Below, in pieces: positions 1,354 through 22,792 of a stretch of DNA of 45,159 bases (the first letter of the stretch is position 1; the number at the start of each line of letters is the position of its first letter). The translations under genes were made by a program, and so were the position numbers. The stretch is from an uncultured Elusimicrobium sp. (GTDB taxonomy: Bacteria > Elusimicrobiota > Elusimicrobia > Elusimicrobiales > Elusimicrobiaceae), in the NCBI GenBank assembly GCA_947305555.1, contig CAMZDW010000006.1, positions 1 through 45,159 on the forward strand, given 5' to 3'. Below the pieces are notes generated by a model, which was not told the DNA's origin, made no database searches, and saw only the letters and a list, made by a program, of their open reading frames with translations.

Positions 1354-2268
1354 ATGGACGAACAAAACTTCAAAAGCGGATTTGCTGTACTGGCCGGGCT
1401 CCCAAATGCAGGGAAATCTACCCTGCTGAACCGGCTTGCCGGGGGGCTTCTGTCTGCGGTGACTCCCAAGCCGCAAACAACGCGCCAAAATATTTTGGCT
1501 ATTTGCGAAGGTGAGAATTTTCAAATCGTGTTTGTAGATACGCCCGGTTTCTTAAAGGCGCAATACAAATTGCAGCAGACGATGGCCGCTTGTGTAGACC
1601 GCGCGGTAGATGAAGATGCGGATGTCGTGCTGTTTTTGGTGGATGCCACAGCCGATTATGCAGCCAACGCGGCTTTGGTAGAAAAATTAAAAACGGTATA
1701 TTGCCCCATTTTCCTCGTGATAAATAAGACCGATTTGGTAAAAGATGTGGAAACGCTGGAAGCATTAGAAGCGCGTGTCAAAACAGATTTGAAAATTGCA
1801 AAAACTTTCCGCATCAGTGCTTCTAAGGGTGTGGGAACGGAAAAATTAAAACAAGCGGTAGCAGAAATTTTACCGCCCAGTCCACCGTATTTCCCGTCCG
1901 GGCAATGGACGGACCGTTGGGAACGATTTTATGCGGCAGAATTTATCCGCGAACAAATTTTTCTGTTATATCAAAAGGAAATTCCGTATAGCACATACGT
2001 GGAAATTGAAAAATTTACGGAAAATTTAGGTCCGAAAAATTTTGTACGCGCCAATATTCATGTGGAACGCGAAAGCCAAAAGCCGATTCTTATCGGTAAA
2101 AAGGGCGCGGCGATTGCCGAACTTCGCAAACGTGCCCAAAAACGGGTGGAAGAATTTTTAGGCCGTCCGTGCCGGGTGGAACTGAATGTTGTAGTATCCC
2201 CTGATTGGCGCAACAATTCGCAACTTTTGGAAAAATTCGGCTATATCGTACGCGACGAACAACCCTAA
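1354..2268 (+). CDS. era: GTPase Era
   Basis: 304 residues, normal length for Era. N-terminal GTPase domain: G1 GLPNAGKST (residues 15-23), switch region with PQTTRQN, G3 DTPG, G4 NKTD, G5 SASKG. The C-terminal KH domain carries ILIGKKGAAIAELRKRAQ, the RNA-binding helix-turn-helix that recognises the 3' end of 16S rRNA. Era binds the 30S subunit and acts in its late assembly, in the cytoplasm and at the membrane. The gene stands alone after the flavin reductase-like gene and is convergent with serC, with 5 bp between the two stop codons. The start has no ribosome site, see the -10 box at 1342. Confidence 0.97.
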   Translation: MDEQNFKSGFAVLAGLPNAGKSTLLNRLAGGLLSAVTPKPQTTRQNILAICEGENFQIVFVDTPGFLKAQYKLQQTMAACVDRAVDEDADVVLFLVDATADYAANAALVEKLKTVYCPIFLVINKTDLVKDVETLEALEARVKTDLKIAKTFRISASKGVGTEKLKQAVAEILPPSPPYFPSGQWTDRWERFYAAEFIREQIFLLYQKEIPYSTYVEIEKFTENLGPKNFVRANIHVERESQKPILIGKKGAAIAELRKRAQKRVEEFLGRPCRVELNVVVSPDWRNNSQLLEKFGYIVRDEQP

Positions 2269-2273
2269 TGAAT

Positions 2274-3434
2274 TTACCGCGAATTACGCAACTGCCGCAC
2301 GATTTCATCTACTGCGGCAGTTAGTTTTTTATATTCTTCTATTCCATTTATATCAATGAACGGGAAACACGCAATGCGCAAGGTGTTTTCCGGCGCTGTG
2401 GAAAAGCGTTTAAGGCCGTCTTGTAAATTGGTTTTTCCGGTGGCGGCTAAAGCGTCGTTAATGGCTGCGTCTGTTAAACGAGGATCCGTCAGTTTAAAGG
2501 TAGGCGTTATATAAGAACGAAATTTTTCATCCGGTACCCAGGGAGTAATATAATCGGTTTGTGCTGCCCAATCAAATAAATAGTTCGCGTGTTTGCGGCA
2601 CAGTGCATCCATGGCCGGCAAGCCGCCGTTTTCGTTCATCCATTTACAGGCTTGATAAAATACCCAAATAGCGGTTGTATCCGGTGTGTTGACTGTCTGA
2701 AAAATACGCGCTTTTTCTACTGCGTGGGCTACGTCCAGTGAATAAGGGACTGAACGGTATTTTTGTACTTCGTCTAACCGTCTTATTGCACGAGGACTGA
2801 GTACCATCGCACAGGTGCCTCCGGGAGCGCCAAAGCATTTTTGTAAGGCAAATAGTAAAATATCAAATTTATTTTTAGGCAGATCTCGTCCACCCGCACA
2901 GGAAGTGGCATCCCAGGCAATCAAGGTATCCGGGCCGCGTTGTTGCCAGGCTTCTTCTAAATACTCATCCGGAATTTGTACCCCGGAGGAAGTTTCATTA
3001 GGCGTCAGAATAACTAGGCTGGCCTTGTAATCCGGTTTTTCACTCGGGAAAAATTCATTAGGTTTTGCAAAACGGACGTTATTTGAAACGGTTTTTCCCA
3101 TTCGGGCGGCCAACGTTTGACCCCACCGTTGGGAGAACGCTCCGAAGGCTAACCCGGAAAGTGATGTGGTGGTAAAATTCCACAGTACGGCATCCATCGC
3201 GGGGGTTGCTCCTCCCGGGAAAAAAATCACCGTGTAGTCTTGCGGAAATGAAAACAATTTTTTGCATGCTAGGGTAGCTTCTTTAAAAAGCCCTTCCGTG
3301 GTGACATCCCAGGCACGATGGCTACGTTCACACCAGGTTTGATAGAGGGGTGTTTGACGCAATTGCGGATGCCCTTGACCGGGTCCGCAAGCAAACGTAC
3401 TGGAGGGGAGTTCCTCCGGATTGAGATAAATCAT
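2274..3434 (-). CDS. serC: Phosphoserine aminotransferase
   Basis: 386 residues, class V aminotransferase fold. It opens with a CGPGQGHPQL segment, has SHR (38-40), PGGAT (73-77), NETSSGVQIP (146-155), the AWDATSCAGG segment that holds the PLP-binding Asp, and the Schiff-base lysine in LQKCFGAPGG (K199). The pattern is closer to the archaeal/actinobacterial SerC branch than to E. coli SerC. The enzyme converts 3-phosphohydroxypyruvate and glutamate to phosphoserine in serine synthesis; some relatives act on other substrates. It starts at the ATG at 3434, 7 nt after a TGCTAAAAT box, and is divergent from the NifU-like gene. Its last codons contain the era terminator on the other strand. Confidence 0.85.
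   Translation of the reverse strand: MIYLNPEELPSSTFACGPGQGHPQLRQTPLYQTWCERSHRAWDVTTEGLFKEATLACKKLFSFPQDYTVIFFPGGATPAMDAVLWNFTTTSLSGLAFGAFSQRWGQTLAARMGKTVSNNVRFAKPNEFFPSEKPDYKASLVILTPNETSSGVQIPDEYLEEAWQQRGPDTLIAWDATSCAGGRDLPKNKFDILLFALQKCFGAPGGTCAMVLSPRAIRRLDEVQKYRSVPYSLDVAHAVEKARIFQTVNTPDTTAIWVFYQACKWMNENGGLPAMDALCRKHANYLFDWAAQTDYITPWVPDEKFRSYITPTFKLTDPRLTDAAINDALAATGKTNLQDGLKRFSTAPENTLRIACFPFIDINGIEEYKKLTAAVDEIVRQLRNSR
2290..2328 (+). terminator. era terminator inside the 3' end of serC
   Basis: A perfect 10-bp stem AACTGCCGCA (2290-2299) with TGCGGCAGTT (2313-2322), 13-nt loop, then AGTTTTTT. It lies 22 bp past the era stop, within the last codons of the convergent serC. Confidence 0.8.
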
Positions 3435-3441
3435 AGTATTT

Positions 3442-3450
3442 ATTTTAGCA
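3442..3450 (-). promoter_or_regulatory. Extended -10 of serC
   Basis: On the minus strand TGC plus TAAAAT ends 7 nt before the serC ATG. There is no Shine-Dalgarno, so the transcript is probably leaderless. Confidence 0.5.
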
Positions 3451-3485
3451 AAAACGAGTTCTTGTGAGCGACTGTTGTTAAATTT

Positions 3486-3494
3486 TGCTAAAAT
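3486..3494 (+). promoter_or_regulatory. Extended -10 of the NifU-like/GGGtGRT operon
   Basis: TGC followed by TAAAAT (3489-3494), about 36 bp before the ATG. The leader holds a good AGGAGA ribosome site. It sits back to back with the serC promoter. Confidence 0.5.
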
Positions 3495-3530
3495 ATATAA
3501 GAAGATTTATTTTTTGTATTAGGAGAATTC

Positions 3531-4232
3531 ATGAGCTGCGAAAAATGTACCCCTGAAGTACAAGCTATGTGCTGTGTCTGCAAAGGCGCCAAGCACGAAC
3601 CGGCCCCGATTCCCGAAGAAGGAAAATGGGTCAAAGCCAAACAAATTACCGATATTAGCGGTTTAACACACGGTGTAGGTTGGTGTGCCCCTCAACAAGG
3701 TGCTTGCAAACTAACACTCAACGTAAAAAAAGGTGTAATTAAAGAAGCCTTAGTAGAAACTTTGGGCTGCTCCGGCATGACGCACTCGGCTGCTATGGCC
3801 GCTGAAATCTTGCCCGGAAAAACGATTTTGGAAGCGTTAAATTCCGACCTCGTCTGCGATGCGATTAACACCGCCATGCGCGAACTTTTCTTGCAAATTG
3901 TATACGGCCGCACGCAAAGTGCTTTTTCTGATGACGGTTTACCGATCGGTGCCGGCATGGAAGACCTTGGAAAAGGACACCGCAGTCAAATCGGCACCAT
4001 GTACGGTACCGAAGCCAAAGGTGCGCGCTATTTGGAAATGGCCGAAGGCTATGTGCTCAAAATCGGTTTAGATAAAAACAACGAAATCATTGGTTACCAA
4101 TTTGTCAACTTGGGTAAAATGATGGATGCCATCAAGAAAGGCGAAGACCCGAAAACCGCGTTTGAAAAGAACGTCAACAAATACGGTCGCTTTGACGAAG
4201 CTGTTAAAGTAATTGACCCGCGCAAAGAGTAA
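3531..4232 (+). CDS. NifU-like iron-sulfur cluster scaffold protein
   Basis: 233 residues, start set by AGGAGA 5 nt upstream. The central part looks like the NifU/IscU scaffold fold: CAPQQGACKLTLNVKKGVI (C52, C59), then TLGCSGMTHSAA (C80), corresponding to the GCGxAxAS segment of NifU, and C109 further on. The N-terminus adds a Cys-rich knot (C3, C6, C14, C15, C17) that could bind a further metal or cluster. Scaffolds of this kind build or carry Fe-S clusters in the cytoplasm. It is followed after 18 bp by the GGGtGRT gene with its own AAGGAG, so the pair is one operon. No cysteine desulfurase is in the window. The role of this variant is unknown. Confidence 0.8.
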   Translation: MSCEKCTPEVQAMCCVCKGAKHEPAPIPEEGKWVKAKQITDISGLTHGVGWCAPQQGACKLTLNVKKGVIKEALVETLGCSGMTHSAAMAAEILPGKTILEALNSDLVCDAINTAMRELFLQIVYGRTQSAFSDDGLPIGAGMEDLGKGHRSQIGTMYGTEAKGARYLEMAEGYVLKIGLDKNNEIIGYQFVNLGKMMDAIKKGEDPKTAFEKNVNKYGRFDEAVKVIDPRKE

Positions 4233-22235: not shown

Positions 22236-22269
22236 GTCTTCCCAGACCTTTAGACCTATCAAGTAAATC

Positions 22270-22297
22270 AAAAAACCACGCTTCCACGTGGCTTTTT
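22270..22297 (-). terminator. Distal terminator of the tRNA-Arg/repeat array
   Basis: On the minus strand a CCACG/CGTGG core extended by A/T pairs is followed by TTTTTT. It differs in sequence from the terminators inside the repeats and may be the original terminator of the tRNA gene. T6 on the other strand makes it bidirectional. Confidence 0.75.
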
Positions 22298-22480
22298 TAT
22301 AATTTGCGCTCGGCGGGAGTCCCCTGCGGTCGTTTTGCTGACACAAAACGCCTCCGGGCCGGGCCTCGTGGTTTTTGCCTTTCGTGCTTCGCGGGTGCGC
22401 TCGCACTCAAACAAAAACATCACTCCGGCCTTCGACTTCCGACGTGGGCCAAGCAGTTGGCCCACTCCAAGCATAAATCT

Positions 22481-22507
22481 AAAAACCGCCCCAAAAGGGC
22501 GGTTTTT
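22481..22507 (-). terminator. Terminator hairpin in repeat copy 1
   Basis: Same as at 22689-22715, offset by 208 bp: AAAAACCGCCC with GGGCGGTTTTT, 5-nt loop. It reads as a terminator in both directions. Confidence 0.8.
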
Positions 22508-22688
22508 AAATTTGCGCTCGGCGGGAGTCCCCTACGGTCGTTTTGCTGACACAAAACGCCTCCGGGCCGGGCCTCGTGGTTTTTGCCTTTCGTGCTTCGC
22601 GGGTGCGCTCGCACTCAAACAAAAACATCACTCCGGCCTTCGACTTCCGACGTGGGCCAAGCAGTTGGCCCACTCCAAGCATAAATCT

Positions 22689-22715
22689 AAAAACCGCCCC
22701 AAAAGGGCGGTTTTT
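22689..22715 (-). terminator. Terminator directly after tRNA-Arg (repeat copy 2)
   Basis: A perfect 11-bp stem, AAAAACCGCCC (22689-22699) with GGGCGGTTTTT (22705-22715). It begins 5 nt after the tRNA 3' end on the minus strand, a normal place for a tRNA terminator. Confidence 0.85.
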
Positions 22716-22720
22716 AAATT

Positions 22721-22792
22721 TGCGCTCGGCGGGAGTCGAACCCACATTTCCAGCTTCGGAGGCTGACGCTCTATCCATTGAACTACGAGCGC
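22721..22792 (-). tRNA. tRNA-Arg (anticodon CCG)
   Basis: On the minus strand the gene folds fully: acceptor GCGCTCG/CGAGCGC, D-stem GTTC/GAGC, anticodon stem TCAGC/GCTGG with loop CTCCGAA (anticodon CCG, codon CGG), variable loop AAAT, T-stem GTGGG/CCCGC with loop TTCGACT, discriminator A. CCA is not encoded. Its last 17 bases are copied twice in the tandem repeats downstream. Confidence 0.95.

Follow-up and report, generated by a model that had tools for sequence, protein, structure and literature searches.

We analysed the 45,159-nucleotide stretch of contig CAMZDW010000006.1 from an uncultured Elusimicrobium sp. (hereafter, the window), in which a tRNA-Arg(CCG) gene is followed by two 208-bp tandem units. 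These units are probably copies of a mini-element of ca 190 bp specialised for the 3' ends of tRNA genes. Mobile or hitchhiking, it would be guided to its sites and mobilised in trans; it encodes no protein. The element carries a complement of the 3' part of its host tRNA, split in two by a hairpin and called here the guide. It ends in a copy of the tRNA 3' end, forms tandem arrays and is found behind tRNA genes of many kinds in Elusimicrobiota and Patescibacteria. As far as the searched databases and literature show, the family is new. An earlier note on this DNA had drawn attention to the array. Its observation is real and understated: the note overlooked the reverse complement (rc) of the tRNA 3' end, split by the hairpin at 22652-22673, and the relatives behind other tRNAs.

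A split guide that matches the host tRNA

Outward from the tRNA, the element is composed of a spacer, an outer guide half, a perfect hairpin, an inner guide half, the triplet GAA, a core and a copy of the tRNA 3' end. With tRNA numbering, the layout reads 5'-[rc 65-70]-hairpin-[rc 57-64]-GAA-core, the outer half covering positions 65-70 or more. Both guide halves are the reverse complement of the tRNA sense strand, that is, they address one and the same target strand. The spacer holds a strong terminator in the source genus and often no terminator in other classes. The loop of the guide-splitting hairpin is usually AACTGCTT. The core, ca 110 nt long, contains two covarying hairpin domains, the second of which has a GTCA loop.

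Agreement between guide and host was assessed on 119 elements with a host tRNA, which represent 30 distinct targets, against 2000 shuffles of the hosts. The inner half agrees with its own tRNA at 4.85 of the 5 positions 59-63 and is perfect in 101 of the 119 elements (shuffles: mean 3.54, maximum 3.77). For the outer half, the mean longest match to the own tRNA is 4.98, as compared with 3.62 in the shuffles (maximum 3.90). Agreement with the true tRNA is closer for the guide than for the right-hand copy of the tRNA end. Thus, the constrained pairing partner is the tRNA or its gene, and not solely the right end of the element.

The right-hand copy typically starts at T-loop position 56 or 57 and continues a few bases beyond the gene. 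The resulting direct repeat, with a median length of 23 bp, starts at 56 or 57 in 28 of 54 cases; in the others, the T-arm part is disordered to varying degrees, with an intact acceptor part. Because the host tRNA is left whole, further hits are possible and give rise to tandem arrays. The last unit of an array is often truncated on the right. Hidden Markov models (HMMs) specific to each end found about 40 solo left ends and 6 solo right ends, a surplus that may be due to selection for an intact tRNA.

Several loci show further particularities. Two elements behind tRNA-Asp (L037 and L014) have identical cores and equal guides, yet the stem of their guide-splitting hairpin differs and is again perfect; this stem is hypervariable. 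In L045, L046 and L058, a second mini-element of ca 300 bp with terminal inverted repeats (TGGGTTGGCAAGGTG...CACCTTGCCAACCC) is nested inside the element. Although the tRNAs differ, its position is the same in these loci, namely in the T-loop part of the guide, which reflects either a strong site preference or a composite moved as a whole. In L044 (G011:C34), the host tRNA-Val(CAC) lacks its T arm (CACACGCG|ACTGCCC) and the element behind it is intact. The loss of the T arm is possibly the scar of an imprecise excision.

The array behind tRNA-Arg(CCG)

All the features of the array are on the minus strand. The host gene (22721-22792; ARAGORN and Rfam RF00005, 65.6 bits) is intact, and its positions 57-73 form the target. 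The first direct repeat (22717-22737) overlaps it, covering the tRNA from T-loop position 57 onward and 4 nt beyond. The proximal unit carries a terminator hairpin, seen in the sequence at 22689-22715. The outer guide half GCTTGG (22675-22680) shows one mismatch to GCTCGG, the reverse complement of tRNA 65-70. It is followed by the perfect hairpin GTGGGCC-AACTGCTT-GGCCCAC (22652-22673) and by the inner half GGAAGTC (22642-22648), again with one mismatch, to GGGAGTC, the reverse complement of tRNA 57-63. The core (22530-22641) starts with GAA, contains covarying helices and the GTCA-loop hairpin, and runs to AGGG. The second direct repeat (22509-22529) is the right end of the proximal element. 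In the distal unit, the 208-bp period places the terminator hairpin at 22481-22507, the outer guide half at 22467-22472 and the inner half at 22434-22440; the hairpin between the halves is at 22444-22465. The distal core (22322-22433) differs from the proximal one at 22326, and the third direct repeat (22301-22321) closes the array. From the order of the array, the terminator at about 22268-22298 is probably the original one of the tRNA.

The sequence, ARAGORN and Rfam bear out the description in the earlier note of a tRNA-Arg(CCG) followed by two 208-bp units (22301-22508 and 22509-22716) with a single difference (G at 22326, A at 22534). As it had also reported, each unit carries the 17-nt tRNA 3' end. 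The 21-bp repeat GACTCCCGCCGAGCGCAAATT (minus strand), made of these 17 nt and 4 nt of trailer, occurs three times at 208-bp spacing. Comparison of the terminators agrees with it as well, the two borne by the elements being identical and the distal one different. So does the GC content, which is 57% in the unit as against 40% downstream and 43% in the whole window. Tandem Repeats Finder scores the units at 872 and relatives in the same genome are found down to E 1e-17, which rules out chance. Only spurious open reading frames (ORFs) are present in the units, and the genes around the array are ordinary (chromate transporter, radical SAM).

Distribution of the element

Elements and their tRNA hosts were searched for using BLAST with the unit, HMMs and a covariance model built from 59 copies. 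Within the source genome (G000), BLAST identified relatives behind tRNA-Ser(GCT), tRNA-Pro(CGG) and tRNA-Ser(GGA), plus one at a contig end. BLAST matches were obtained in 25 of 41 genomes, namely the source genome and its 40 nearest. The covariance model matches 11 times in the source genome, 19 times in G046 and 32 times in G011; across Elusimicrobiota, it matches in 102 of the 248 genomes sampled and in 23 of 76 genera, other classes included. Among the first fetched loci, 101 of 127 HMM hits lie behind a tRNA gene of the same orientation, mostly at a distance of 25-50 bp; many of the remaining ones are at contig ends. Hosts of at least 27 isoacceptor types were found in Elusimicrobiota and Patescibacteria. 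In a pattern scan of named genomes, the matches listed include gut and environmental Elusimicrobiota as well as Parcubacteria, Niyogibacteria, Colwellbacteria, Moraniibacteriota and Campbellbacteria among the Patescibacteria. The Patescibacteria copies match the covariance model and sit behind tRNAs.

The search of the insert against the rest of the genome and against relatives, suggested in the earlier note, thus returned copies behind other tRNAs, as predicted for a mobile unit. One of the two readings proposed there, in which a 187-bp mini-element inserted twice, in nested fashion, at an attachment site in the tRNA 3' end and the distal terminator is the original one, is strongly supported by these relatives behind many other tRNAs, here and elsewhere, and by orthologous tRNA loci with and without the element. 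A one-off duplication or an assembly artefact, which the note had also envisaged, is refuted by independent copies in many genomes and phyla.

An exact pattern scan of viral contigs gave no match. Rfam, at the gathering cut-off and with E up to 10, recognised in the units only the tRNA and weak chance matches. Nothing relevant was found in the literature on rtT or on tRNA-linked repeats in Elusimicrobia and the Candidate Phyla Radiation; subscription journals were mostly outside this search and earlier descriptions are possible.

Two other kinds of repeats were seen at these loci. The element copies in L028, L038 (second copy) and L362 (G000:C21) lie not behind a tRNA but behind a repeat ending AAATCAGCA..TGCT..AAACTA..CACCG. 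Its CCG equals the tRNA tail, and such repeats may mark where islands that had integrated at the final tRNA bases come to an end. In L079, L105, L070, L119 and L123, a GC-rich repeat of ca 130 bp that looks unrelated (TTTTTCTTCTTAAAA...GGGTACCTCGG/GCATACCTCCG...) is located directly behind tRNA genes.

Near-identical cores at different tRNA loci

Closely related cores are found behind different tRNAs. Within one genome, the cores of L013, behind tRNA-Ser(GGA), and L037, behind tRNA-Asp, are 97% identical and their guides differ. The same is observed between separate genomes for L042, behind tRNA-Leu(CAA), and L039, behind tRNA-Thr(CGT), and for L053, behind tRNA-Thr(CGT), and L170, behind tRNA-Val(GAC), with 96% identity of the cores in each pair. 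Such near-identical cores with different guides indicate that elements or cores move.

In a tree of 120 cores, the tRNA type changes 81 times (shuffled labels: mean 95, minimum 89) and the genome 93 times (mean 102, minimum 97). Kinship of cores by tRNA and by genome is thus only slightly conserved in both cases. Plain clustering by either one was rejected as a description, since each barely beats shuffled labels. Orthologous tRNA-Arg loci contain two elements, one, a truncated one or none. Where the element is missing, as in G047 and others (L118, L113, L125), the tRNA is followed directly by a terminator and then by the convergent gene.

On the minus strand of L068, at ca 1587-3960, a stretch of ca 2 kb is bounded by two 3' ends of tRNA-Met, the second of which belongs to a degenerate tRNA. 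As judged by eye, the stretch encodes an MFS-like transporter and a small secreted protein. It is flanked by a partial element and, on the opposite side, by a full one, and looks like cargo carried between elements.

Hairpins almost devoid of G-T pairs

The two best hairpins of the element vary at nearly every pair. Among about 1,780 pairs, 1,732 are Watson-Crick, 12 are G-T and 12 are A-C. The tRNA T stems of the same loci have 800 Watson-Crick, 61 G-T and 13 A-C pairs out of 895. The share of G-T is therefore 0.7% in the hairpins and 7% in the T stems (p = 5e-19), and the ratio of G-T to A-C also differs (p = 0.003). Because RNA structures tolerate G-U, the near lack of G-T suggests that selection or copying acts on DNA.

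Proposed mechanism and alternative explanations

The observations may be accounted for as follows. The element would act as folded single-stranded DNA. While the tRNA gene is in a single-stranded state, the guide would pair with its exposed top strand, at the 3' strand of T arm and acceptor stem, and would thereby aim the insertion. Insertion would duplicate the region that starts at position 57 and ends shortly beyond the gene. The enzyme may be supplied in trans, by the host or by another source. A core that reaches a new tRNA would acquire, or be selected for, a new guide. This could happen by mis-targeting and selection between tRNAs with similar T arms, or by core exchange between elements; the inner guides for tRNA-Ser(GGA) and tRNA-Asp are alike except for one base.

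A number of results weigh against this reading. No mobilising enzyme was found. Y1_Tnp is present in only 7 of 41 genomes of the genus and absent from G000. RVT_1 is present in 7 of 32 genomes and missing from the element-rich G000, G046, G044, G015, G011 and G107. IS110 (PF01548) gave hits with E<=0.001 in 4 of 30 genomes, above the cut-off in 2; like RVT_1, it is missing from the genomes richest in elements, and the ORFs of the units include no such transposase. Most carriers have no Cas1. The unit contains no dedicated tyrosine integrase, and exactly two PF00589 genes, presumably those of XerC and XerD, are present in G000, G021, G237, G175 and G117. Besides, no movement was observed, and transfer between tRNA loci by recombination, or core exchange among resident elements, would possibly give the same pattern. 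The largest gap is that the change of both guide halves when a core switches tRNA lacks an explanation. Some guides show mismatches at 57/58, and that of the window has one in each half. A few copies have no recognisable host tRNA. The scarcity of G-T could result from copying of the hairpins instead of a function as DNA, and the core contains a pair of columns, invariant as T-G, that would be in keeping with an RNA motif.

Y1 transposase, reverse transcriptase, Cas1, IS110 and a dedicated tyrosine integrase were all discarded as general mobilisers owing to their absence from carriers. Since no enzyme family fits, the mobiliser would be host-encoded, unrecognised or not resident. A longer autonomous version was also sought, with separate left-end and right-end HMMs on all fetched loci; the solo left ends are plain truncations and no ORF-bearing form was seen. 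In family f1, the median number of elements per genome is 4 with Cas1 (n = 19) and 7 without (n = 46; p = 0.003), with genomes treated as independent of phylogeny and counts scored up to about 11 per genome. In genus g11, all three element-free genomes sampled carry Cas1.

Passive spread at tRNA loci, through natural transformation or ordinary homologous recombination, is the foremost alternative, which we regard as rather improbable. Here the tRNA complement would be no guide but a by-product of quasi-palindrome correction, in which fold-back DNA synthesis from the terminator hairpin repeatedly adapts the left arm to the tRNA. The whole left arm in the source genus is indeed a palindrome centred in the terminator, and the stems of L037 and L014 differ and stay perfect beside identical cores. 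The failure to find an enzyme speaks in the same direction, as do the lower element numbers alongside Cas1, which fit spread by DNA uptake. Simple fold-back, however, would hardly produce two guide halves in fixed register (64|65) around a hairpin. Moreover, guides match in other classes, where a terminator between tRNA and guide is often missing, and those of rtT, the tRNA-linked repeats of Enterobacterales, are exact blocks of 6-10 nt immediately before GAGAA. Less probable still is a functional RNA co-transcribed with the tRNA, processed and pairing with it (in processing, as a decoy or in regulation), and spread by tandem duplication and occasional transfer, as assumed for rtT. The strong covariation, a fold z-score of -6.3, the motif invariant as T-G, T-G, the complementarity to the tRNA itself and the annotation of rtT as an RNA processed from the tyrT transcript are in its favour. 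The tenfold lower share of G-T pairs than in T stems argues the other way, together with the terminator lying between tRNA and unit in the source genus, the variable presence among close relatives and phyla, the many truncated copies and the free switching of host tRNA by cores.

A SINE-like retroelement, whose RNA copy would be reverse-transcribed at a T-loop nick to give a target-site duplication of variable length, would explain why one boundary of the duplication is fixed and the other variable, and the nick position 56|57 adjoins the pairing region. We hold this to be very improbable in view of the six element-rich genomes devoid of RVT_1. Furthermore, truncation mostly spares the left end and removes the right one (about 40 to 6). 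The opposite would be expected of reverse transcription starting at the right, although this bias may stem from selection for an intact tRNA. A guided DNA element mobilised in trans is the reading that we prefer.

Relation to rtT of Enterobacterales

The rtT repeats (Rfam RF00391, rttR) share much with the element. In E. coli, the rtT units behind tyrT-tyrV end with the tRNA-Tyr end from position 58. In these units, GGGGAAGGAT, the exact complement of positions 59-68, stands directly before GAGAAGC. RtT behind tRNA-Pro of E. coli and Salmonella has the block GAGGAT before GAGAACC, and RtT behind tRNA-Lys has GTACAGGAT before GAGAAGC in Arsenophonus and is also found in Providencia. Each of these blocks (Tyr, Pro, Lys) is complementary to the tRNA behind which it stands. 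The same GGGATGAGAA form as in rtT is seen in some of the copies from Elusimicrobiota and Patescibacteria. Thus, both kinds of unit are located behind a tRNA and end in a copy of its 3' end from about position 58. Both have a complement of the host T arm, varying with the host, just before GA(G)AA, as well as a GTCA-loop hairpin and tandem arrays with right-truncated last copies. In contrast, the guide of rtT is not split by a hairpin and the rest of the core cannot be aligned, so that sequence homology of the cores is not demonstrated. With E allowed up to 10, Rfam did not report RF00391 for the window units or for L177, and in the converse comparison R1 gave no match on L369. The element works like rtT and, by the definition of Rfam, is not rtT.

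The other reading of the earlier note, an RNA array like rtT, is accordingly borne out as to the likeness, which extends to the whole architecture and the tRNA-specific complement. Its structured-RNA part is less supported, the covarying hairpins lacking the G-U tolerance of the adjacent tRNAs. In the valT-lysW arrays of E. coli and Klebsiella (L375, L377, L382), shortened RtT units without the long guide were seen between tRNA-Lys and the next tRNA. They end with the tRNA-Lys 3' end, and the PLSDB gene table lists no feature there.

rtT is known as an RNA of unclear function and not as a guided element. A wider proposal would include it in a widespread class of protein-less selfish DNA, in which a DNA guide pairs with the single-stranded tRNA gene, host machinery mobilises the element and the guide is rewritten upon a move to another tRNA, distinct from RNA-guided transposition. 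We consider this proposal possible and, on balance, doubtful. The architecture is common to at least three phyla, and the tRNA complement, which varies with the host tRNA, suggests that an element devoid of any gene inserts under sequence guidance. For the rtT repeats of E. coli, long of unclear function, there would be a new explanation and, if this is true, annotation pipelines would treat 'RtT sRNA' features otherwise. Movement of the element and renewal of its guide become testable, with the guide as a direct experimental handle.

Comparison with other known systems

Miniature inverted-repeat transposable elements resemble the element in being short, ORF-free, dispersed and flanked by a direct repeat of the target. 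They differ in having the terminal inverted repeats of a known autonomous parent, whereas only inverted arms derived from the target are seen here. Group II introns and other retroelements depend on a reverse transcriptase, and RVT_1 was detected in the 7 of 32 genomes mentioned above. As to integrons, no RYYYAAC/GTTRRRY core of attC was seen by eye, and IntI was covered only through the PF00589 search. Some copies have GCATAA/TTATGC in the hairpin; a dif-like reading based on this was abandoned, as the majority of stems do not conform to it. Tandem guides of TIGR-Tas systems occur in Patescibacteria, and their two spacers address both DNA strands (PMC12045711). This system was set aside as a match, because both guide halves of the element address one strand.

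IS110/IS1111 elements, with their bridge RNA or seekRNA, also use a short two-part guide around a hairpin to set the insertion target. The guide halves of IS110 pair with opposite target strands, whereas those of the element both pair with one strand. In addition, the element has no DEDD transposase, its guide shows no sign of action as RNA and IS110 is absent from most carriers. Casposons produce a long target-site duplication at tRNA 3' ends, and CRISPR forms polarised arrays of repeat and insert. Both traits of Cas1 integration are found with the element. However, most carriers have no Cas1, casposon terminal repeats are missing and the insert is a single family instead of variable spacers.

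IS200/IS605 transposition involves single-strand hairpins and a DNA guide beside a subterminal hairpin that pairs with the flanking target, and non-autonomous copies are known. The element is alike in its hairpins and in having a DNA guide beside one of them. Its target complement is about 14 nt long instead of 4-5, its direct repeat is about 23 bp where IS200/IS605 has none, and Y1_Tnp is limited to 7 of 41 genomes of the genus, G000 not being one of them. tRNA islands with a tyrosine integrase differ in that the element is gene-free, ca 190 bp long, present at many tRNAs and endowed with an internal target complement, some carriers having only two PF00589 genes. Like the element, these islands insert at the T loop, restore the tRNA, leave the displaced 3' end at the far side and build up tandem insertions.
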